Source of the DNA: Chlorobiota bacterium
GTDB lineage: Bacteria; Bacteroidota; Ignavibacteria; Tepidaquicellales; OLB5
Length of the DNA: 64,000 nt
Direction: 5' to 3'
Assembly: GCA_022616535.1 (NCBI GenBank)
Contig: JAKEEM010000051.1
Coordinates: 1 to 64,000, forward strand
Both the position numbers and the translations under genes were made by a program. Of this stretch, positions 7,615 through 33,131 are shown piece after piece; within the stretch, counting starts at the first letter, position 1, and each line of letters starts with the position of its first letter. The notes under the pieces are model-generated. The model was not told the DNA's origin. It worked only from the letters and a program-made list of their open reading frames with translations, and made no database searches.

Positions 7615-8889
7615 TTAATTTTTAAATTTAAAATTACGGTGATACCGGATAAATTCTGCGAGGGGCATCTTACTATCAATCCGACTCTTTATTACAATAC
7701 TATTACTTGAAAGAATTACAGTTTTTAAATTTTGATCTACAATCTCTGAGAATTTTGGAGAAGTTATTATTCTATGATCATCGGTTAAAGAAAAATAACC
7801 CTTATCAAACGCAATATGGCAGTGTCGACACAAACAAATTCCATTCAAAATATGAGTTCTATGAGGTGGAGCACCATCAGGCACATTATCAGGTTTAATA
7901 TGCGATGCTTCCACAAAAATTTGACCATTTACATCACAATTAGGTACAGCACAAATATAATTATATTTCTTTTTTATCCTAATTGCCCATGCAGCATTCC
8001 TCATCCTCCTTGTACTATTTGCAAATCTTAAATCTGTGCTTAATATATCTAATTCCGGTATCTGACTTTCTTCTTCTTCGGAAACAGCTTCCACTAAGGG
8101 AGCCGTATAAATTTCATCTGTGATTTGCTCCTCAATACTTTGTTGTTGTGTGATGTTTTCGAAAATTTCTTTTATAGATACCTTAAAAGGTGAGATTTCA
8201 ATTAAGGGATTATCTCTTATCGATTCCCAATCTGCATCGCTTAACAAAGTATTCGGTGTAAAATTTTTTATTTCTCTAACAAAATTTGGGTATTTGCTCG
8301 TATAAATTAGTCGATCATTTAATTCATTAAAAAGACCTGAATTAATCAGATCTCTTTTCCAGTATGATGCATCTCTTGCCACGCCTTCCTTTGTACCATC
8401 TACAAGAGCTGAGAATTCTGTTAAGGAAATTGAATTATCATTGTCAAGGTTATTCAATAAAAATTTTAATGGGATATCACCTTGAGCGGGATTTGTCGAA
8501 TATTGTGCATGAGAATCATTAAAAGCAAAAATCGCTAATGAAATCGAAAGGGTGAGCTCATAAATTTGTTGCGCTGCAATGTAATTACCAATAGTATATA
8601 GATCGTTCCATATCGAGCCCATTCGCGTCCATATAAGGGGGCACAAATTCCCTTCTTTAATAAATCCATATCTTATCATCGTGCGTATTTTGGTTTGCAT
8701 TGTTGAGGGTTGCACTCCAACGATTTCTGCAAATCTATATTGCATTGGATCAGTATACCTACTACCCGACCACCTCCATCCTGAATAATCAGGTTTTTGG
8801 CTTTCAATTACTAATTCTCTAACCGCAAGTAGCTCCTCTAAATTTGAGCTACTCCTAGAATGAAACCAATCACCATTTATTGAGGCCAT
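7615..8889 (-). CDS. HNH restriction endonuclease, R-M system 1
   Basis: A 424-residue protein with a C-terminal HNH nuclease domain of the zinc-stapled kind. CAVPNC and CLCRHC supply four zinc cysteines, EASHIKPDN the first histidine, LNG the asparagine and CHIAFDKG the last histidine. The N-terminal 300 residues show no motif I recognise and presumably read the DNA site. Cotranscription with two methyltransferases makes it the restriction subunit of a type II, possibly IIS, system. It is first in the operon, ahead of its protective methylases, an order that usually needs some delay mechanism; none is visible. Confidence 0.85.
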   Translation of the reverse strand: MASINGDWFHSRSSSNLEELLAVRELVIESQKPDYSGWRWSGSRYTDPMQYRFAEIVGVQPSTMQTKIRTMIRYGFIKEGNLCPLIWTRMGSIWNDLYTIGNYIAAQQIYELTLSISLAIFAFNDSHAQYSTNPAQGDIPLKFLLNNLDNDNSISLTEFSALVDGTKEGVARDASYWKRDLINSGLFNELNDRLIYTSKYPNFVREIKNFTPNTLLSDADWESIRDNPLIEISPFKVSIKEIFENITQQQSIEEQITDEIYTAPLVEAVSEEEESQIPELDILSTDLRFANSTRRMRNAAWAIRIKKKYNYICAVPNCDVNGQIFVEASHIKPDNVPDGAPPHRTHILNGICLCRHCHIAFDKGYFSLTDDHRIITSPKFSEIVDQNLKTVILSSNSIVIKSRIDSKMPLAEFIRYHRNFKFKN

Positions 8890-13787: not shown

Positions 13788-14252
13788 TTAATATTTTAGA
13801 GCCTCTTCGTTAAGATACCAGCCGTGATAGTTTTCAGTATCTTCTGTGAAACCGCTTTTAATTGGATTATTAAACATATATGCAAGTTTTTCCATAAACT
13901 CATCGTAATCTCTGACTATTCTATCATATGATTCTTCAAGCCATATAGAACCACTGGTGTTTCTTAATTGGTTAATTTGATGTGCTGTAACACCTTTTAT
14001 TCCTTTCATTATTCTGCTTAGAGAATAACTCTCATTTGGCTTCAGCAACAAATGCACATGGGTAGGCATAACAATAACCGCATAAAGAATATAAAACTTG
14101 TTATCGCCCCCTTTGATATGCTCTAACAGTAATTTCTGTTCCTTAATTGATAACTTAATGGCTAAACAAGTAAATGTGACGAAATAAACAGAACCTTCCA
14201 AAGTCCAGTGAGGTAAATGCCTTCGAAATATTTTTAATTCATTTCCCTTCAT
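13788..14252 (-). CDS. REP-associated tyrosine transposase (RAYT), copy 1
   Basis: A 154-residue HUH-type transposase of the IS200/IS605 superfamily (Y1 Tnp). The metal-binding HUH motif is PTHVHLLLK and the putative nucleophile tyrosine lies in the C-terminal helix YDRIVRDYDEF. The N-terminus LPHWTLEGSVYFVTFTC is typical of RAYT proteins. Such enzymes cut and join single-stranded REP hairpins. Two hairpins lie at its 3' side, and none is seen in the 30 bp before recN. It appears intact. It is clearly different from the copy at 48447, so it is not a recent duplicate. Confidence 0.9.
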   Translation of the reverse strand: MKGNELKIFRRHLPHWTLEGSVYFVTFTCLAIKLSIKEQKLLLEHIKGGDNKFYILYAVIVMPTHVHLLLKPNESYSLSRIMKGIKGVTAHQINQLRNTSGSIWLEESYDRIVRDYDEFMEKLAYMFNNPIKSGFTEDTENYHGWYLNEEALKY

Positions 14253-14282: not shown

Positions 14283-15965
14283 CTATGGCCCTATCAGCTC
14301 TTTTGCGCTTTTAATGCTTGCATCGGTAACCTTCTCGCCGCTTAAAAGCTTTGCAACCTCGATAACTTTCTCGTTTTTATCAAGCGGGCGGATTTTCGTA
14401 ATTGTTGAATCGCCCTCGGTCTCTTTTTCAACAAGCAGGTGTTCATCGGCAAGAGCAGCTATCTGGGCTAAATGAGTTATTGCAATTACCTGCCGGTATT
14501 CGGAAAGCTTTTTCATAACCCTGCCCACCTTCTGCGCTATGCGCCCGCTTATGCCGATATCAATTTCGTCAAACACCAGCATGTTGACCTTATCGGCATC
14601 GGCAAGAACAGTTTTAACCGCAAGCATAATTCGCGATACCTCGCCGCCCGAGGGAGTCTTTCTGAGCGAGGAAAATGCGTCGCCTTTGTTAATTTTAACC
14701 ATAAACTCAACATCGTCAGTCCCGCTTGGACCTAAGGATTCAACCAGGGTAAGCGCCACTTTAAACTCCGCATTTTCAAACCCAACTTCATTCAGTATTT
14801 TCACTATATCCTGTGCCAGAGTCTTTGATTTTTCCTTCCTGATTTTTGATATTTCCCCTGCTTTTTTAAAAAGGCTTTCTTTTGCTTGTTTGATTTCATT
14901 TTCAAGCTTTGCAATTTTCTCATCAAAGTTATCTACTAAAGCGAGGTCACTTTCCAGCTTTTCTTTCAGCTTTATCGCTTCATCAAGCGAACCGCCGTAT
15001 TTTTTCTTAATGAACTGCAACTTGTAAAGCCGCTCGCGGATTTGTTCAATCTGCCCGGGGTCAAAGCTCAAATTCTCAATTAAGCGCTGAACCTGCCTGC
15101 TTGCTTCGTTTATAGCTGTTGATGTCGTCTCGATTTCGTTAAGTATTTTCCGGAATTCGGAGTTGTATTCTGCTGTTTTAGCAAGCTCTTTTTCCGTAAT
15201 TTTTAATCTTTCGCTTATTGAGCCTGAGTCCTCGTATAAATTCAAATACGCTGCAGTTAGCCCCTGCCGTATGCTTTCTATATTCTCCCCTGTTTTAAGT
15301 TCGTTTTCAAGCTCGTCATCTTCACCTGGGGCGGGATTTACCTCCTTAATTTCCTTCAGCTGAAACTCTAGGAAATTTCTTTTACTGTCCAGTTCTTCCT
15401 TTTTTTGTTTAATATTTTCATACTCACTCGTTTTATTCAACAAATTAACATATTCCTGTTTATAATTATCCAGCTTTTCTATAAATTTCTTCCCTTCTGT
15501 TTTGCATAAATATGAATCCAAAAGCTCAATATGCACTTCCTTTTTAAGCAGTGACTGGTGTTCGTTCTGCGAATGTATGTCCACCATTACATCGCCAAGC
15601 GAAGCAAGAACACTTGTCGGGACAGGGCTGTCGTTAACGAAATTTCTGCTGTATCCTTTTGAGTATAATTCCCTTCTTATTATCAAATTATCGCCAATTG
15701 AATCGATTTCATTATCGTTAAGTATTTTATTAATTACATCCTTACTGTCTTCTGAAATCTTAACAATTCCCTCAATGAACATCTTTTCCCTGTTGCTGCT
15801 GATGATGGAGTAATCCGCTCTTTCGCCCATAAGCAGCGAAAGCGCATTAATTAAAATGGATTTGCCCGCTCCGGTCTCGCCCGTAATTATATTAAAGCGC
15901 GGGGAGAAATCTATCTCAATATTTTTTAAAAGCAGATAATTTTTTATTATAAGTTTTTCTAACAT
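14283..15965 (-). CDS. recN: DNA repair protein RecN
   Basis: An SMC-like ATPase of about 560 residues that acts early in double-strand break repair. The N-terminal half has the Walker A loop ITGETGAGKSILINAL, the centre is a long coiled coil (KQKKEELDSKRNFLEFQLKE and later blocks), and the C-terminal half has the ABC signature region SGGEVSRIMLAVK and Walker B VNMLVFDEIDIGISG. The ORF track begins at a TTG three codons earlier; the ATG at 15965 gives MLEKLIIKNYLLL, the usual RecN N-terminus. The gene has its own 260-bp upstream gap towards dnaA. Confidence 0.96.
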   Translation of the reverse strand: MLEKLIIKNYLLLKNIEIDFSPRFNIITGETGAGKSILINALSLLMGERADYSIISSNREKMFIEGIVKISEDSKDVINKILNDNEIDSIGDNLIIRRELYSKGYSRNFVNDSPVPTSVLASLGDVMVDIHSQNEHQSLLKKEVHIELLDSYLCKTEGKKFIEKLDNYKQEYVNLLNKTSEYENIKQKKEELDSKRNFLEFQLKEIKEVNPAPGEDDELENELKTGENIESIRQGLTAAYLNLYEDSGSISERLKITEKELAKTAEYNSEFRKILNEIETTSTAINEASRQVQRLIENLSFDPGQIEQIRERLYKLQFIKKKYGGSLDEAIKLKEKLESDLALVDNFDEKIAKLENEIKQAKESLFKKAGEISKIRKEKSKTLAQDIVKILNEVGFENAEFKVALTLVESLGPSGTDDVEFMVKINKGDAFSSLRKTPSGGEVSRIMLAVKTVLADADKVNMLVFDEIDIGISGRIAQKVGRVMKKLSEYRQVIAITHLAQIAALADEHLLVEKETEGDSTITKIRPLDKNEKVIEVAKLLSGEKVTDASIKSAKELIGP

Positions 15966-16133
15966 AATTTTCAAGCATGCGTTACTATACTTATTCTTTA
16001 TTATATAAATAAAATTGCAGCAGTAGTAGTTCTGTTTATAAATGTAAAATTAAACAGAATTATTCATATTTAGAATATAAATAGGAATAATAAACTATAT
16101 TCTTGTTGAAGCACATGTTGAAAAGCAGAAGAC

Positions 16134-16142
16134 TTATTAACA
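16134..16142 (+). promoter_or_regulatory. DnaA-box-like 9-mer downstream of dnaA
   Basis: TTATTAACA, one base off the TTATNCACA consensus. It lies in the AT-rich gap between recN and dnaA. Taken with the 9-mers at 16216, 17902, 17917 and 18000 it suggests DnaA binding around the gene. A single 9-mer with a mismatch is weak evidence by itself. Confidence 0.35.
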
Positions 16143-16215
16143 TACTTTCTCATGCAAACGGGTGAAAAATAAAAAGCCGTCCTTTTTATGTGGACAGCTT
16201 GCGGGTTATAAATTA

Positions 16216-16224
16216 TTATCAACA
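16216..16224 (+). promoter_or_regulatory. DnaA-box-like 9-mer at dnaA 3' end
   Basis: TTATCAACA, one base off TTATCCACA, located 4 bp beyond the dnaA stop codon. It supports a cluster of DnaA-binding sites on both sides of dnaA. Chance occurrence in AT-rich DNA cannot be excluded. Confidence 0.35.
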
Positions 16225-16227
16225 AAT

Positions 16228-17736: not shown

Positions 17737-17900
17737 TTTATGTTAAGTTTATATTTTAAATAAAGAAAGATTGTTAGTTTAAGATTAAGTTTAAGTATAT
17801 GACTATAACTACACAAAATAATTTTAAATCACAAAGTAATTAACAACCAAATCAAATAATAAACCCTTGTATTTTAATGCTTTGATAACGTCTTCAGAGG

Positions 17901-17926
17901 GTTATTAACATATAATTGTTAATAAC
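17901..17926. repeat. Perfect 10-bp inverted repeat in dnaA upstream gap
   Basis: GTTATTAACA and TGTTAATAAC are perfect complements separated by TATAAT. The inner 9-mers each resemble a DnaA box, so this may be a pair of opposed boxes. The sequence continues into TTTTTT on the plus strand, so an intrinsic-terminator-like hairpin is the other reading. No plus-strand gene precedes it, which makes the terminator explanation less natural. Confidence 0.6.
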
Positions 17927-17999
17927 TTTTTTGGAGCAGCACTCAACCACATTTATTGAAGGTGACAGATTTGAACAACATAGGTTAAGCTTTCAACAT

Positions 18000-18008
18000 T
18001 TATTCACA
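18000..18008 (+). promoter_or_regulatory. DnaA box TTATTCACA
   Basis: A full match to TTATNCACA, 264 bp upstream of the dnaA start used here. Nearby CTGTTAACA and the opposed pair at 17901-17926 strengthen the view that DnaA binds here, for origin function, dnaA autoregulation or both. Confidence 0.5.
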
Positions 18009-18203
18009 ATCTGTTAACATGAAAATTCAGCGACTCGCCTTGCATAATAATTAAAAAAAAAAATTATGTCAACTTTTTATGTTAAAATACTGCTACTACG
18101 TTAACGCAAATTTAACAATTATCCGATGTTTACAAAAATTTCCGTAACTTTCTTTTGGTATGCCTGCCAAAACTTTTGTCATTTTTTGATATAAGCTCGC
18201 AGC

Positions 18204-18300
18204 CATCCCCTCTCCCAATTGGAGACCCGCCTTTCCACGACTCCTGCGAGTCGTTGACTAGTGGAGCAACAGACAGAGGGAAACGAGGGTGAGGTTATCG
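18204..18300. repeat. CCCCTCTCC/GGTGAGGTT repeat with inserted hairpin
   Basis: The left edge CCCCTCTCCCAATTGGAGA and the right edge GAGGGAAACGAGGGTGAGG match the family seen intact at 18489-18527 and 55853-55905. The middle contains an additional perfect hairpin ACGACTCCTGCGAGTCGT (18237-18254) absent from those copies, so a second palindromic element seems nested in the first. Confidence 0.6.
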
Positions 18301-18488
18301 CCTAACGTATGGAAGCTCCTGTTTCAAAAAAACTAATTTAATATCTTAATTTAATGTCTTCAAAGCTAAATGTAAATGAATTTTAATTGTCCTGAACCCC
18401 AATCTGCATTTTAATGAAAAGTTTTAGGGTAATAGCTTTAAATTCCTTAATTAATCCACATCAGCTATAGACATCGACCGCTTAACAT

Positions 18489-18527
18489 CCCCTCTCCTCA
18501 TAGGAGAGGGGAACGAGGGGTGAGGTT
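18489..18527. repeat. Palindromic repeat CCCCTCTCCT...GGTGAGGTT, intact copy
   Basis: A perfect 10-bp stem CCCCTCTCCT / AGGAGAGGGG with loop CAT, followed by AACGAGGGGTGAGGTTA. The same tail occurs at 18285 and 55894, which defines a dispersed intergenic element. It lies downstream of the SDR gene that ends at 18555 and could terminate its transcript. Confidence 0.8.
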
Positions 18528-18554
18528 AAATAGCGGAGCCCGGAAACCTACTCG

Positions 18555-19585: not shown

Positions 19586-20950
19586 ATGCCATACGATAAC
19601 AAAACCATATTCGCCCCGATATCAGCCGTAGGCGAGTCCGGAATCACCGTTTTCAGGATTTCCGGGCCGGAGATGTTTTCTATTATAAGTGACGTATTTT
19701 CAACAAGTAATGAGAGGTTTTCCAGGGTTGACTTCCAAAATTTTGCGACCCACACCTCGCACCACGGCTGGCTTTGGGATTCAGGTGAGCTTGTTGATGA
19801 AGTCATATTAACAATATTCCGCGCGCCTAATTCATACACCGGCGAAGATGTCACGGAGATTTCCTCGCACGGCGGCTCATATATTTACAGAAAAATTTGC
19901 TCGTTATTTATTAAGCAGGGAATAGACTATGCAGAGCCGGGTGAGTTTTCCAAACGCGCATATCTAAACGGCAAAATGGACCTTGCTCAGGCAGAAGCGG
20001 TGGCTGAACTGATTAAAGCAAAAACGGAAGAATCAAACAAGCTCGCGCTTAAGCAGCTTACGGGTGAGTTTTCAAAAAAAATAAATGAGCTTCGGGCAGA
20101 TTTGATTAATTACTGCTCACTGCTTGAGCTTGAGCTTGATTTTTCCGAGGAGGGGATTGACCTTGTTTCAAAAAACGAACTGCTTTCAAAAATTGATGGA
20201 ATTATTGAAAAATTCAATAAATTAACAAAATCTTATGAAAGCGGCAAAATTATACAAAATGGTGTCAATTTGGCAATCGTAGGTAAGCCAAATGTTGGTA
20301 AATCAACAATTTTCAATTATTTATTGAAAGAAAATAGAGCTATTGTAAGTGATATCCCCGGAACAACCCGTGATTACCTCCAGGAGCCGCTAATTATGGA
20401 AGGAATTCAATTCAACGTTATTGACACAGCGGGAATACGTAAGTCCGGAGATATAATTGAGGAAGAGGGTGTCAGGCGTTCCATCCAGAAAATTGACGAA
20501 TCGGATATAGTTTTAGAAATTGAGGATTTAACGGATTTGAAGTCCAGTGGCGCTGAGCTAGTCAATGATGTTGATACATCCAAAATTATAAAGATTTACA
20601 ACAAACTTGATTTATCAAGAAACGGAAAAATGGACGGTCTTTGTGTATCAGCTAAAACGGGAGCTAAAATGGGTGAATTGCAGAAAATAATTGTAAAAAA
20701 GGCAAAATCTTTAATGAAATCTGACCAAAGCTCCGATTTGATTATAACAAACCAAAGGCACAGGGATTGTTTGTTGAAATCATGTGAATTTCTTGTGAAC
20801 GCAAAAGAACAAATAAAACAGGGGGGTGGTAATGAATTGATTTCGTTTGAGATAAGAGCTGCAATGGATTCACTTTCTGAGATAATCGGCAAAACATCAA
20901 ATGTTGATATCTTGAATAATATCTTTTCTAAGTTTTGTATAGGGAAATAA
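19586..20950 (+). CDS. mnmE: tRNA U34 modification GTPase MnmE
   Basis: Works with MnmG to put a carboxymethylaminomethyl-type group on wobble uridine. The N-terminal tetrahydrofolate-binding domain begins IFAPISAVGESGITVFRISG and includes the motif PGEFSKRAYLNGKMDLAQAEAV. The central G domain has G1 VGKPNVGKST, G2/G3 IPGTTRD and DTAGIR, and G4-like NKLD. The C-terminus is the catalytic CIGK (residues 451-454). The length of 454 is normal. mnmG follows on the same strand after 371 bp, so coregulation is plausible but not a tight operon. Confidence 0.98.
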   Translation: MPYDNKTIFAPISAVGESGITVFRISGPEMFSIISDVFSTSNERFSRVDFQNFATHTSHHGWLWDSGELVDEVILTIFRAPNSYTGEDVTEISSHGGSYIYRKICSLFIKQGIDYAEPGEFSKRAYLNGKMDLAQAEAVAELIKAKTEESNKLALKQLTGEFSKKINELRADLINYCSLLELELDFSEEGIDLVSKNELLSKIDGIIEKFNKLTKSYESGKIIQNGVNLAIVGKPNVGKSTIFNYLLKENRAIVSDIPGTTRDYLQEPLIMEGIQFNVIDTAGIRKSGDIIEEEGVRRSIQKIDESDIVLEIEDLTDLKSSGAELVNDVDTSKIIKIYNKLDLSRNGKMDGLCVSAKTGAKMGELQKIIVKKAKSLMKSDQSSDLIITNQRHRDCLLKSCEFLVNAKEQIKQGGGNELISFEIRAAMDSLSEIIGKTSNVDILNNIFSKFCIGK

Positions 20951-21321
20951 CGTCAATTCAGAACCCGCCTAAGGAGGGTGCTTGCCTGCAGAAGGCAGGA
21001 AAGAATTCCATAACTACATCGATTAGCTTAGCAAACGATAGCAAAATAACCAATTTTACTATACCTTTGAACCATTTGAGACAAATAAGAAAATTGACTT
21101 TAATTTTCTTAAATTTTTAAGCATTTTTGTGTTTTGTATCACTACCTTCTGAAAATGTCGCACATGTGATTGTAAATTTCTTCAAATTTTGAGGTTTTTT
21201 TTAGAGAAAGTTCGTATCCCTTTCAGAAGGTATTGAGACAAAAAATGGTCCGAAATGGGTATAAATTCAACAAAAATAGCAAATGTTTCACGTGAAAACA
21301 TACACAAACTAAACGGGGCAA
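20951..21321. other. Gap between mnmE and mnmG
   Basis: 371 bp with no supportable gene. It contains a CCTGC/GCAGG hairpin near 20984, three copies of TTGAGACAAA (21076, 21233 and 21322, the last forming the mnmG start), and a 90-bp segment bounded by the perfect 12-bp inverted repeat TACCTTCTGAAA / TTTCAGAAGGTA. The mnmG promoter should be in the last 90 bp. Confidence 0.5.
21143..21232. repeat. 90-bp segment with perfect 12-bp terminal inverted repeats
   Basis: TACCTTCTGAAA at 21143-21154 and TTTCAGAAGGTA at 21221-21232 are exact complements with 66 bp between. This could be a small non-autonomous element, or a long-range stem in the mnmG leader RNA. No obvious target duplication is visible immediately outside. 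Confidence 0.6.
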
Positions 21322-23211
21322 TTGAGACAAAACTTGCCTAAATATTATGATATAATAGTAATCGGCGGAGGACATGCTGGTATTGAAGCAGCATGGACTG
21401 CTTCCCGAATGGGACTTTCCGTTGGCATGGTTACAATGGATTTGGATGCTATTGGCAGAATGTCCTGCAACCCGGCGATTGGTGGGTCTGCTAAAGGGCA
21501 TTTGGTTAAGGAAATCGATTCACTCGGAGGTGCTATGGGAAGAATTGCTGATGAAACCGGAATTCAGTTTAGAATGCTTAACCGCTCCAAAGGTCCCGCA
21601 ATATGGTCACCCCGCTGCCAAAACGACAGGGAACTATATTCAAAAGTTGCAAAAGAATATATTCTAAATTGTCCAAATGTGGAATTGATTCAGGATACTG
21701 TTGAAGAGCTAATTACTGAAAATAAAAAAGTGAGAGGTATTTTTACCTCCCTCGGACGTAAAATAGATTGCAACGCTGTCATTATTACAAGCGGCACTTT
21801 TTTAAATGCAGTCATGCATACAGGCCGCAGGCAAACAGAGGGGGGCAGGTTCGGCGAGAAATCCGCAAAGGGTCTTTCGAATTACCTGCTTAAAAACGGT
21901 TTAGTAACAGGCAGGCTAAAAACCGGAACTCCGCCCAGACTGGCTCTTAATACAATTGATTTTTCGAGCTGCGAAGAGCAGCCCGGAGATGAAAACCCAG
22001 CCCCGTTTTCTGTTTTTTCAAACGGTAATTTTCCGAAATTAAAACAAATATCATGCTATTTAACATACACAAATAAGGACACGCATGAGATTCTGCGGAC
22101 CGGATTTGATGATTCACCTATGTTTACAGGGAGAATTAAAGGTATCGGTCCACGCTACTGCCCTTCCATCGAGGATAAAATTTTCCGCTTTGCAGATAAG
22201 CCGCGCCACCAGATATTCCTTGAGCCGGAGGGACTTAATACAGACATTGTTTACATGAACGGCTTTTCATCAAGCCTGCCTGCAAATATACAGAAACAGG
22301 CGCTTAAAACTGTGCCCGGACTAGAAAACGCTAAAATGCTGCGAGCCGGCTATGCGGTTGAATATGATTTCCTGCCCACCCACCAAACAAAGCTCACGCT
22401 TGAAACCAGGCTGATTGAAGGGCTTTATGTTGCGGGACAAATCAACGGCACATCTGGTTACGAAGAGGCAGCAGCGCAGGGTCTGGTAGCGGGTATAAAT
22501 GCTGCATTAAAGATTCAGGACAAAGAGCCGTTTATACTCAAAAGAAATGAAGCATATATTGGTGTATTAATCGATGATTTAATCAATAAAACCCCCGATG
22601 AGCCGTATAGAATTTTCACTTCCTGTGCTGAATACCGGCTTATTTTAAGGCAGGATAACGCGGATGAACGCTTGATGAAATACGGCAGCAAATTCGGCTT
22701 AATTCCGGATGATATTTATAAAGATGTAGTTGAAAGGCAGGAACTTGTAAAAGAAGCAATCGGGTACTTTAAATCCACTTATGTTTCTCCCTCTGATGTT
22801 AATTCATACCTTAGTTCTGTCGGCTCACAGGAGCTAAAGCAATCGGATTCACTTTCACAGCTCATTAAGCGAAACGAAACAAAACTTCAGGATTTTCTTG
22901 AAACAGATTATTTTAACGAAAATATGCTTGTTGATGAATTGAAATCGAACATTGATGCTATGAACGAGATTGAAATTGAATTAAGATACGAGGGCTATAT
23001 TCAAAGGCAAATTGAGCAGGCAGAAAGCTTTAACCAGGTTGAAGGGATTGAAATACCGGAGGATTTTGATTTCGGCAAAATCAAATCGCTATCGACCGAA
23101 GGCAGGGAAAAGCTAAGTAAAGTCCGCCCGCGTTCAATAGGACAAGCTTCAAGAATTGCAGGGGTTTCACCCGCCGATGTTTCCATTTTAACGGTTTACA
23201 TCAAAGGATAG
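21322..23211 (+). CDS. mnmG: tRNA U34 modification enzyme MnmG (GidA)
   Basis: The FAD- and NADH-dependent partner of MnmE. The FAD-binding N-terminus is [20 protein letters not shown], followed by the family blocks [18 protein letters not shown] and LKTGTPPRL. The C-terminal helical domain that contacts MnmE ends with [19 protein letters not shown]. The 629-residue length is standard. An in-frame stop lies 12 bp upstream, so the TTG at 21322 is the earliest possible start, and no ATG is available before the FAD motif. Confidence 0.98.
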
Positions 23212-23257
23212 TTACAATAAACAATAAACAATTAGCAATAGGTAATAGAGTTGTAGC

Positions 23258-23276
23258 GTCCGTTCGCCGAACGGAC
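23258..23276 (+). repeat. Solitary REP palindrome between mnmG and rsmG
   Basis: Perfect 9+1+9 palindrome GTCCGTTCGCCGAACGGAC preceded by GTAGC and followed by ATTT. It is nearly identical to the palindrome at 48425 next to RAYT copy 2 (GTCCGTTCTCCGAACGGAC), so it is a likely off-site product of that transposase. Confidence 0.85.
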
Positions 23277-23302
23277 ATTTACCATGCTGTGTATTTCAAT
23301 TA

Positions 23303-23908
23303 ATGAATAAACCAGATAATTGGCAGGCAATCTTAAAGGAAAAACAGTTCAATGACCTTCTGATTGAATGGAATAAGAAAATTAACCTTGTTTCACGCAA
23401 AAAACCCGACGTTTTTGATTTAATTGAAGATAGTAAGCTTTTCTTTGAGGCGATTAATTTCACCCCCGGAAATAAAATCCTTGACTTAGGCACAGGCGGA
23501 GGATTTCCCGGGATTGTTATTGCACTCCACCACCCCGAAGCCGAGCTTACGCTTATTGATTCAATCCAAAAGAAAATAAATGTTGTATCCGATATTGTTA
23601 AGCAAATGGAGCTGCAAAATGTAAATGTAATTTGCGCAAGAGCGGAGGAAATTTCACAATCACCAGAGCATAAAAGTATATATGATTATGTCGTCGCCCG
23701 CTCGGTAACAGTGCTGCAGGATTTGGCAAAATGGTCAAAAGAGCTGTTAAAACCTTCAGGCAAGCTGGTGGCAGTTAAGGGAGGCGATATAAAAGGTGAG
23801 CTCAGCAAAACAAAAAGATTAAGTTTTGTTAAAAATGTCAGGAGAATAGAGAAAAATGAAAGAACAATAATAATTGTTGAACTAGCTAACTATCGAAAAA
23901 CTGGATAA
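23303..23908 (+). CDS. rsmG: 16S rRNA G527 N7-methyltransferase RsmG (GidB)
   Basis: Methylates G527 of 16S rRNA. The SAM-binding motif I is KILDLGTGGGFPGIVIAL, followed by the GidB blocks LTLIDSIQKKINVV and VVARSVTVLQDLAKW. At 201 residues it is slightly short but complete. It follows mnmG with a REP palindrome between them. Its last 23 bp overlap the 3' end of the convergent VOC-domain gene. Confidence 0.97.
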   Translation: MNKPDNWQAILKEKQFNDLLIEWNKKINLVSRKKPDVFDLIEDSKLFFEAINFTPGNKILDLGTGGGFPGIVIALHHPEAELTLIDSIQKKINVVSDIVKQMELQNVNVICARAEEISQSPEHKSIYDYVVARSVTVLQDLAKWSKELLKPSGKLVAVKGGDIKGELSKTKRLSFVKNVRRIEKNERTIIIVELANYRKTG

Positions 23909-30251: not shown

Positions 30252-31505
30252 TTAGCTTTTTGTGAAACCAAAAACCTCTTTCAATATATCTTGATTATAT
30301 TTCTGCATTTTATTGACTAAACTTCCTTCATAAAGGGCGGTGCGGCCATTTTTTGCTGTTATCCTGCTTTTTCCGTCAATATCATCTAGATGAATTTCTA
30401 ATGGTGTTGCAGACAATACCATATTCTTATTATCATTTTTAGTTTTCTCCGCATGCTTATCTTTTTTTAAATATATCAAGTTTTGCCAGTTATCAATAAG
30501 CTTGAACTCAACTTTATTTCTTGCAGATGAAAAAGGAACAACATGGTCAAGCTCAAAAATTAAGCTTCTTCTAATTTTATCCGAAATTCTATGCTTTTTA
30601 AAATATTCGCGCTTAGCACCCAGACTCCGTTTCTTAATCAGTTTGTCACTAAAGATTCCGTAAGTACCTGTGTTAAGTCTTAAACTATTTTCAGTTATGT
30701 CAAAATAAACTGTGTTTTTAAGTAAAGTAAATATTTGTTGAATTTCGTTTTTCCAGTTACCAAAATCCCTTCGTATTGTTTTGTTGCCCTTAAAATTTGA
30801 AGGATTACAATATTGTCTTATTAATTCTATTGCTTTTTCTCGTTGCCACCGCTCCAACTCGCGGAATGAATCAATAAGCGAGATTTTTTTCTTATTAGTT
30901 CCTGGTCGGTCATCCGACAGAATAAGCATAAATTCAAATATTCCAATCCGATCCTTTTTATAATTGCTATAATAAATTGTTTCCGCCCATTGTGTAATTG
31001 CATCTCCAAACAATTTATCAATAGCATCAGTAAAGATTTTATGTCGTTCAATAATAGATGTGTCTTTTAAAAAAATTAAAGATTTATCTGTTAATTTTGC
31101 ATAATGAACCACGCCTCGTTTATTTGGAGGAATCAATTGTTGTTTTATATTAAAACGATTCAAAAGACCCATTCTGTGAAAATCTACAAAGAAATTCTTT
31201 TTTAATGAATTTATGGTTCCTAAGTCAGCAGAATCCTTAACTGATTTAACTATTTGATAGTATTCATTACAGTCAGGGTTATAAATACCTTTATCATCGC
31301 CCAAAGGGATACGGAACATTTTATCTCCAACAATTTTATATATACCTTTTAATATATTGCTCAATCTATCCAAATCGTATCTATTATGTTGAGTTATGTG
31401 ACGACCTCTATAATCCTTATCTTGAATTCTTTCTACAATGTAATTCAAAAAAAGATTACTGTGTTTTATAGAGATAATTTCTCTTAAAATTTCTTTAGGA
31501 TTCAT
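30252..31505 (-). CDS. HNH restriction endonuclease, R-M system 2
   Basis: A 417-residue protein with a C-terminal HNH domain lacking zinc cysteines: FELDHVVPFSSA supplies the first histidine, WQNLIYL the asparagine and KDKHAEKT the last histidine. The N-terminal 300 residues are lysine-rich and not recognised; they probably read the DNA site. Its ATG overlaps the end of the adenine-type methyltransferase gene by 11 bp. It differs from the system 1 endonuclease, which has a zinc-stapled HNH, so the two cassettes are unrelated arrivals. It is last in its operon, after both methyltransferases. Confidence 0.82.
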   Translation of the reverse strand: MNPKEILREIISIKHSNLFLNYIVERIQDKDYRGRHITQHNRYDLDRLSNILKGIYKIVGDKMFRIPLGDDKGIYNPDCNEYYQIVKSVKDSADLGTINSLKKNFFVDFHRMGLLNRFNIKQQLIPPNKRGVVHYAKLTDKSLIFLKDTSIIERHKIFTDAIDKLFGDAITQWAETIYYSNYKKDRIGIFEFMLILSDDRPGTNKKKISLIDSFRELERWQREKAIELIRQYCNPSNFKGNKTIRRDFGNWKNEIQQIFTLLKNTVYFDITENSLRLNTGTYGIFSDKLIKKRSLGAKREYFKKHRISDKIRRSLIFELDHVVPFSSARNKVEFKLIDNWQNLIYLKKDKHAEKTKNDNKNMVLSATPLEIHLDDIDGKSRITAKNGRTALYEGSLVNKMQKYNQDILKEVFGFTKS

Positions 31506-32286
31506 AGTTATTAAGGGTTTTTTTTATATTTTGTTTTGCTAGCTCTACATATTTCGGATTAGAATCACAACACAAGAATTTCCTACCTAATTTCAATGCG
31601 GCTTGAGCCGTCGTTCCGCTTCCAGCAAAGCAATCGAGGACAATATCGCCTTCATTACTACTGGCTAAAATTATTCTTTCTATCATTTCCAATGGCTTTG
31701 GAGTTAAGTGAGGCATTTTAGGTGTTTTCCCATTGATTTTATTTTTATGCCTTGCACTGGTAATATGCCAGACCTCTCCACATAGTTTTCCTTCGGGGTT
31801 AGGATACCAACGTTTTCCATTTTTTAAAATACCTTTTATTTCCGCGTGTTTTATCCTGCTGGTGGATTCATAAGGCAAACGTACAGCATTATAATTAAAA
31901 GTATGGTTATTATTTTTTGTAAAAAATAAGATGGTTTCTTGGCCGTTGCTGTAGCGTCTTTTTGCTCCACCTAATCCATCTCTTTTATCCCATGTTATCC
32001 AGTTTTGGAAATTTAAACCTTTCTCTTTCAAATACAACATAATATAAGCGGAGTTATGTGGAGTGTTAAAAATATATAAACTCCCGTTGTCTTTCAATTT
32101 GGGAATTAATGTATCAACCCAACGAAATGTGAACTTGAAAAATTGGTCTGGACTATCAAATGTGTCCCAATCTGCTTTATTCAAATTATATGGAGGGTCT
32201 AAAATGGCAAGATGGATACTGTTGTCTTGAACCTGATTCAAAAAATCAAAACAATCAGCTTGATAGATTTGATTTAATTCGAGCAT
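31495..32286 (-). CDS. DNA methyltransferase DPPY type, R-M system 2
   Basis: A beta-class methyltransferase of about 263 residues. Catalytic motif IV LAILDPPYNLNKADW is near the N-terminus, and the SAM motif VLDCFAGSGTTAQAALKLGR near the C-terminus. DPPY usually means N6-adenine methylation. The track starts at a TTG (32295) overlapping the previous stop as TTGA; the ATG at 32286 (MLELNQIYQADC) is the more conventional choice. The gene is AT-rich relative to menA and other core genes. Confidence 0.9.
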   Translation of the reverse strand: MLELNQIYQADCFDFLNQVQDNSIHLAILDPPYNLNKADWDTFDSPDQFFKFTFRWVDTLIPKLKDNGSLYIFNTPHNSAYIMLYLKEKGLNFQNWITWDKRDGLGGAKRRYSNGQETILFFTKNNNHTFNYNAVRLPYESTSRIKHAEIKGILKNGKRWYPNPEGKLCGEVWHITSARHKNKINGKTPKMPHLTPKPLEMIERIILASSNEGDIVLDCFAGSGTTAQAALKLGRKFLCCDSNPKYVELAKQNIKKTLNNYES

Positions 32287-32291
32287 GGTGT

Positions 32292-33131
32292 TCAAAACAA
32301 ACTGTCACTCAACTTTGTGCTGATAACTTTTTCATAGCTTTTAGAAATTTCATAACCAACGTAATTACGCTTTAATTCTTTTGCGACTTTAAGGGTTGTT
32401 CCAGAACCAGCGAATGGATCCAAAACATTATCATCGACATAAGTATATAATTTAATACATCGGCGCACGATTTCCTCAGGCATAATTGCTGAATGCTCGC
32501 CAAATGCAATGTCATTTTTGCCAGGAATTGGAATGTTCCATATTTGCTTAGTAAACTCAACCCATTCTTTTTCTGTCAATTTACTTTTCTCTTTTAATTC
32601 AATTGGAAGGTTATTTTCAGATACACCATCTTTCACGTAAACAGATATGAACTCTATTGTATTTTGTGCATAAAAGTTTCTAGGGTAAGGATAACTACCA
32701 AACATTAACCTTTTGCTAGGATTAGTCCTATTCCAAATATAAATATCAAGTAAGAATAAATTTGTTCCTTTTAAAATTGAATGTTGAATATCACTATTAA
32801 TGTCAAAAATATGCCTGTTATAATGTGTGTTTAGAACTTTTTTTAGCATTGGCATTAAGGGAGAATTTATCACCAGTTTACCATTTGGTTTTAATACTCG
32901 TTCACACTCTTTCCATATAATTAACATTTCTTCAATGTATCTATCATAATCATGAATATCGCCAATTTGTCCATTTATTTTATCAGTCCTTTTGTTTTTT
33001 TGGTAACCGTCCAAAGAATAATCTTTTATATTAAAATAAGGAGGACTAGTGACTATCAAATGTATTGAGTTTGAAGGTAATTCTGTCATTTCCCTTGCGT
33101 CTTTGTAATATACTTTGTTCAGAAAGTCCAT
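32292..33131 (-). CDS. DNA methyltransferase TSPPY type, R-M system 2
   Basis: A 279-residue beta-class methyltransferase with motif IV LIVTSPPYFNIKDY at the N-terminus and motif I VLDPFAGSGTTLKVAKEL at the C-terminus. TSPPY favours N4-cytosine, but N6-adenine members exist. The pair of different methylases in one cassette fits an asymmetric recognition site with one enzyme per strand. It is first in the operon, so protection would be made before the nuclease. A 330-bp AT-rich gap upstream holds the promoter. Confidence 0.9.
   Translation of the reverse strand: MDFLNKVYYKDAREMTELPSNSIHLIVTSPPYFNIKDYSLDGYQKNKRTDKINGQIGDIHDYDRYIEEMLIIWKECERVLKPNGKLVINSPLMPMLKKVLNTHYNRHIFDINSDIQHSILKGTNLFLLDIYIWNRTNPSKRLMFGSYPYPRNFYAQNTIEFISVYVKDGVSENNLPIELKEKSKLTEKEWVEFTKQIWNIPIPGKNDIAFGEHSAIMPEEIVRRCIKLYTYVDDNVLDPFAGSGTTLKVAKELKRNYVGYEISKSYEKVISTKLSDSLF

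Follow-up and report, generated by a model that had tools for sequence, protein, structure and literature searches.

The genes around dnaA

The window, the whole stretch of 64,000 nucleotides analysed, lies on an 89.7 kb contig (C76) of a genome of 2.89 Mb in 77 contigs (G000), and the closest dnaA relatives of this genome were Ignavibacteria metagenome-assembled genomes of a named collection. Comparisons were made within the window's own family (f1) and with a second family of the same order (f2). The genes dnaA, recN, mnmE, mnmG and rsmG, which the initial annotation had named from the letters and translations, were all confirmed by scores exceeding the NCBIfam cut-offs (Table 1). The minus strand carries cysS, a Kef-like transporter, a REP-type transposase, recN and dnaA; beyond dnaA come a gap, a probable NAD(P)-binding gene and then mnmE, mnmG, rsmG and nth on the plus strand. 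recN adjoins dnaA across f1 and in most f2 dnaA loci, and in f1 the mnmE-mnmG-rsmG cluster lies divergently beside dnaA. As dnaN was found away from dnaA, on contig C20 near dciA (G000:C20 47839-50470), an origin linked to dnaN was rejected. RNA families and tRNAs were looked for and none was found.

Directly 3' of recN is a gene resembling REP-associated tyrosine transposases (13788-14252, minus strand), scoring 79.1 bits against an NCBIfam cut-off of 80 bits. HNH-like restriction-type genes and a DNA methyltransferase-like gene, judged from their translations only, flank the region in low-GC stretches (7615-8889, 30252-32295).

Table 1. Genes and origin-related features of the dnaA region, in positions of the window
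Feature	Position	Strand	Remarks
recN	14283..15974	-	TIGR00634, 493.9 bits; synteny; conserved ATG start at 15965; conserved downstream neighbour of dnaA
Proposed unwinding half, oriC2 (dnaA-recN gap)	15966..16227	-	conserved block, 13 aligned f1 genomes
Predicted AT-rich unwinding element (DUE)	15983..16017	.	TATAATAAAGAATAAGTATAGT nearly invariant in f1
Four DnaA-trios CTACTACTGCTG	16018..16029	-	3'-GATGATGACGAC-5' on the strand that DnaA would capture; conserved
DnaA box TTATAAACA beside the trios	16033..16041	-	3 nt from the trios in most relatives
DnaA box TTATTAACA	16134..16142	+	
dnaA terminator-like hairpin, then T-rich tail	16174..16200	-	conserved AAGCT(A/G)TCC...GGA(T/C)(A/G)GCTTTT (alignment)
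DnaA box TTATCAACA, directly past the dnaA stop codon	16216..16224	+	
dnaA	16228..17736	-	502 aa; TTG start (conserved); TIGR00362, 494.8 bits; recognition helix FGGRNHATVIHA
Proposed oriC1, conserved portion of upstream gap (box cluster and dnaA promoter)	17737..18080	-	alignment of 13 f1 genomes
Inverted DnaA box pair GTTATTAACA-TATAAT-TGTTAATAAC	17901..17926	.	TTATTAACA at 17902 (+) and 17917 (-)
DnaA box TTATTCACA	18000..18008	+	within a row of TGTTNA-like words
dnaA promoter TTGACA-17-TATTAT	18044..18072	-	11 of 12 consensus positions; conserved in 13 of 13 aligned sequences
mnmE, mnmG, rsmG	19586-23908	+	scores above NCBIfam cut-offs

DnaA boxes on both flanks of dnaA

The initial annotation had placed a candidate origin in the gap upstream of dnaA on the strength of the neighbourhood (dnaA and mnmE-mnmG-rsmG within 8 kb), of TTATTCACA in an AT-rich gap and of near-matching 9-mers, which it also reported on the recN side. 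Both observations held: TTATTCACA is present, and 9-mers within two mismatches of TTATCCACA number 6 in the upstream gap (3.3 expected) and 6 in the recN-side gap (1.0 expected). Taken alone, the single TTATTCACA is weak evidence, and it counts for more than chance because it is conserved among relatives and because TTATNAACA is enriched here. Counts of the E. coli consensus by themselves were set aside as weak and misleading for this origin; the classical box TTATNCACA occurs at 0.07 per kb elsewhere on the contig, is weakly enriched around dnaA in f1 (0.71 vs 0.06 per kb) and is unenriched in f2 (0.061 per kb around dnaA vs 0.055 in the relative G026). The boxes here are thus not of the E. 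coli type, for which TTATNCACA should be enriched at the origin, and the scarcity of the classical box was counted against reading the locus as a bipartite origin.

The variant TTATNAACA gave a different picture, with 5 copies in the 657 bp of the two gaps, or 7.6 per kb, vs 0.14 per kb elsewhere on the contig. As the motif was derived from f1, f2 provides the fairer test, and there TTATNAACA reached 4.66 per kb around dnaA vs 0.18 in G026, about 24-fold. The locus thus has the intergenic box cluster at dnaA, denser than elsewhere, that is expected of an oriC, and has it on both sides of the gene, as expected of a bipartite origin. When scanned with the family box, both our contig and the sampled contig C1 of the f1 relative G001 had their two densest 400-bp windows at the two flanks of dnaA. 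At position 6 of TTATNNACA, the ratio of A to C was 48:9 in f1 and 76:1 in f2, and 29:37 in a set of 20 other families of the class, each represented by one genome. It appears that, within this order, the word bound by the initiator has changed from TTATNCACA to TTATNAACA.

Within the upstream gap, the conserved block runs from the promoter through a row of TGTTAACA, TGTGAATAA and TGTTNA words and the inverted box pair to a conserved AT-rich sequence that reaches the TTG start. The left arm of the inverted pair is invariant in all 13 aligned f1 genomes and a similar pair was seen in 8 of 17 f2 genomes. A promoter scan returned 13 matches vs 7.0 in shuffled sequence, so only the conserved TTGACA-17-TATTAT was retained. 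The interval flagged by the initial annotation (17737-18554) was too wide on one side, as the f1 alignment showed no conservation at ~18140-18554, and the more important gap at 15966-16227 had been omitted. The unconserved part, which separates dnaA from the next gene upstream, contains two repeat-like segments with CCCCTCTCC or GAGGG(G)TGAGGTT (18200-18310, 18485-18530). The window has 4 copies of CCCCTCTCC (0.23 expected). The longer word AACGAGGGNTGAGGTT, even when one mismatch was tolerated, matched only 4 sites in the genome, so it is not an abundant repeat family. This stretch was dropped as a part of the origin, being absent from the conserved blocks of relatives.

Predicted site of chromosome opening

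In the basal unwinding system of B. subtilis, a DnaA box is followed by a short spacer, DnaA-trios (3'-GAT-5' on the captured strand) and an AT-rich stretch (PMC6669920, PMC8287927), and the published rule requires a box, a spacer of at most 16 nt and at least three trios of the form 3'-NAN-5' (PMC8287927). Read on the minus strand, the dnaA-recN gap presents a hairpin-T terminator, boxes and then TTATAAACA-GAA-CTACTACTGCTG-CAATTTTATTTATATAATAAAGAATAAGTATAGT, so that a box, a 3-nt spacer and four trios stand in the order of that system. By nearest-neighbour energies, the contig is least stable in the 100-bp stretches that start at 15983 (the lowest) and 17743, the former coinciding with the AT-rich stretch directly after the trios.

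The pattern of box, spacer and trios had its sole match in the 89.7-kb contig in the dnaA-recN gap, and in ~1.7 Mb sampled from G001 the only match with a 3-nt spacer was again in that gap. When the module was defined by the published minimum of three trios, here of CT type and behind a short spacer, it was found 3' of dnaA in 11 of 13 f1 and 9 of 17 f2 genomes (base-shuffled expectation 0.42 and 0.30), and on the reverse strand downstream of dnaA in none of these 13 and 17 genomes. Two f1 and eight f2 loci failed this strict rule, several of them truncated or rearranged; the f2 count is lowered by loci where recN is not beside dnaA (L034, L040, L046) and by one cut by a contig end (L032). Other versions of the rule were discarded: four trios missed most relatives, a box with two trios (TAYNAACANNNCTNCTN) was too short and unspecific (4 matches in our genome vs 5 for the reversed-pattern control), and the pattern beginning TNNTNACA was in the wrong frame for this box. 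Other families of the class, compared by eye only, have TTATCCACATATCCACA-like boxes in tandem and then TTATTATTA-like runs in the same place, which supports TTATNAACA as the local box form.

What was observed directly (the box enrichment, the order, position and conservation of box, spacer, trios and AT-rich stretch, the promoter and the low helix stability) indicates that the locus is very probably oriC. The earlier proposal of a chromosome origin at dnaA is well supported by the conserved box clusters on both sides and the unique box-trio module. Its placement upstream of dnaA was right as to the boxes and the dnaA promoter, whereas the unwinding signature of box, DnaA-trios and AT-rich element lies downstream; the origin therefore looks bipartite, with the upstream gap as its box and promoter half. 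We hold it highly likely that this is a DnaA-dependent origin of the form oriC1-dnaA-oriC2 that opens at 15983-16017 beside the trios. Judging by sequence, the likeliest place of opening is the dnaA-recN gap and not the gap before dnaA.

Opening in the upstream gap (17737-18554), with the recN-side gap as an accessory, is unlikely. The conserved boxes, the inverted pair and the unstable stretch at 17743 would fit it; however, trio modules occur upstream in only 1 of 13 f1 and 2 of 17 f2 genomes, compared with the 11 and 9 downstream, and characterised bipartite origins melt in the half downstream of dnaA (PMC7561715, PMC5043019).

The initial annotation had named a GC-skew minimum elsewhere as grounds for abandoning the origin, and this was examined in relatives. 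Sampled skew in G001, whose two contigs were joined in listed order as an assumption, was lowest at 640-700 kb and highest at 2.485 Mb, with half a chromosome between the two; dnaA, at 760 kb, is close to the minimum. After correction for gene strand, the best switch point was adjacent to dnaA in G026 (1.72-1.80 Mb; dnaA 1.705 Mb) but displaced in G001 (640-680 kb; log-likelihood gain 30.5 vs 21.8 at dnaA) and by 80-150 kb in G005 (380-450 kb; dnaA 529 kb); in G001 the minimum or switch lies ~60-120 kb from dnaA. These offsets of about 100 kb in two of three relatives count against the proposed origin and would suit a real origin ~100 kb away on the mnmE side, with the boxes flanking dnaA serving only its autoregulation, a reading that we regard as improbable. 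No rival box cluster stood out near the G001 switch. Our genome, G001 and G005 differ on the mnmE side by rearrangements with inverted blocks, and autoregulation would have no need of recN-side trios and boxes. The corrected skew of our own contig, a local measure only, also changes sign near dnaA, being negative to its left, slightly positive for ~20 kb to its right and then mixed. Rearrangement of the mnmE side would explain the offset, and the skew supports the region, not the exact point. In G001, a stretch of ~300 kb (C1 ~1.8 Mb to C2 ~0.05 Mb) has a skew sign opposing that of its arm if C1 and C2 are joined; this is possibly a recent inversion, or the assumed join is wrong.

It is very improbable that the conserved dnaA-recN gap is only a dnaA terminator and recN promoter with CTACTACTGCTG resembling trios by chance, for although the gap has a terminator-like hairpin (one not called by a simple hairpin scan with a loop limit of 8) and a TATAAT-like sequence near the recN start, such a reading does not call for a box that stands, in both families, 3 nt from CTN triplets kept in phase on one strand, and leaves the box enrichment unaccounted for.

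For the bipartite origin, we propose that domain IV of DnaA would bind boxes of the TTATNAACA form on both sides of dnaA. The upstream boxes (17737-18080) probably autoregulate the dnaA promoter and supply DnaA to the other half; they probably repress dnaA, since the set sits just downstream of its promoter. The box at 16033-16041 would seed an ATP-DnaA filament that may enter the trios (16018-16029), capture one strand and open the AT-rich 15983-16017. Loading of DnaB would follow there, probably with the help of DciA. The two halves could be joined by looping. Such base-level predictions concern the site of chromosome opening in an uncultured lineage. TATAATAAAGAATAAGTATAGT (15983-16006) is almost invariant in f1, beyond the need of an AT-rich melting stretch, and may also be a protein-binding site or an element of a recN promoter.

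The initiator protein and known bipartite origins

The arrangement resembles the bipartite oriC of B. subtilis in its box clusters on both sides of dnaA and in the box, short spacer, DnaA-trios and AT-rich element downstream of the gene (PMC6669920, PMC8287927). It differs in that recN follows dnaA here and dnaN there, the boxes are of the TTATNAACA form with only one clear box beside the trios in f1, and DnaA has Asn and Ala in place of Asp433 and Thr435 (E. coli numbering). The order oriC1-dnaA-oriC2 is shared with Clostridioides difficile and with epsilonproteobacterial origins of the H. pylori type, where melting takes place in oriC2, as predicted here (PMC7561715, PMC5043019). The epsilonproteobacteria likewise have a changed DnaA contact motif and box core, although their core is TTCAC and ours AACA, the lineage is another one and melting at our locus is a prediction. 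It was stated in 2016 that a bipartite oriC was known in no Gram-negative other than H. pylori (PMC5043019), a statement that is superseded at least by the epsilonproteobacterial cases of that same paper. In Melioribacter roseus, which is related to the Ignavibacteria, the parts of the genome report consulted also place the predicted oriC in the gap directly downstream of dnaA, and they make no mention of trios; that gap, of 303 bp, precedes dnaN, whereas here recN follows dnaA and dnaN is on another contig near dciA (PMC3534657).

In E. coli, Thr435 contacts the box and a T435M protein is defective (PMC7561715, PMC5742627). All f1 genomes had the recognition helix FGGRNHATVIHA. Of the 15 f2 loci read, 13 had FGGKDHATVLY and two had HSTV, so that f2 DnaA mostly has Ala at this DNA-contacting position; B. 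subtilis (8btg) has FGGRDHTTVIHA there, and the 20 other families have FGGRDH[ST]T. Two other families (L192, L195) have Ser at the Thr435 equivalent yet only A-type boxes, and two f2 loci retain Ser. Given these cases and the shared ancestry of the order, the joint change of Ala and box amounts to one or two events and is an association, not proof. On balance, the sequences lean towards DnaA and its box having drifted as a unit in this order, Thr435 to Ala and TTATNCACA to TTATNAACA (position 6, C to A), on a bipartite, trio-bearing Gram-negative origin with the trios downstream of dnaA. If so, this would be an origin code overlooked by scans with the E. coli consensus, and a natural change in DnaA and box specificity that could be addressed by single substitutions (Thr435Ala vs box position 6). 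A Gram-negative lineage whose DnaA box has shifted would also join those with bipartite origins and trios. Origin finders that rely on the consensus may place the origins of this order wrongly or overlook them, as the classical box is unenriched around dnaA in f2. At the positions of the B. subtilis DnaA residues I190, I193, K222 and R264, the DnaA of the window has V, I, K and R.
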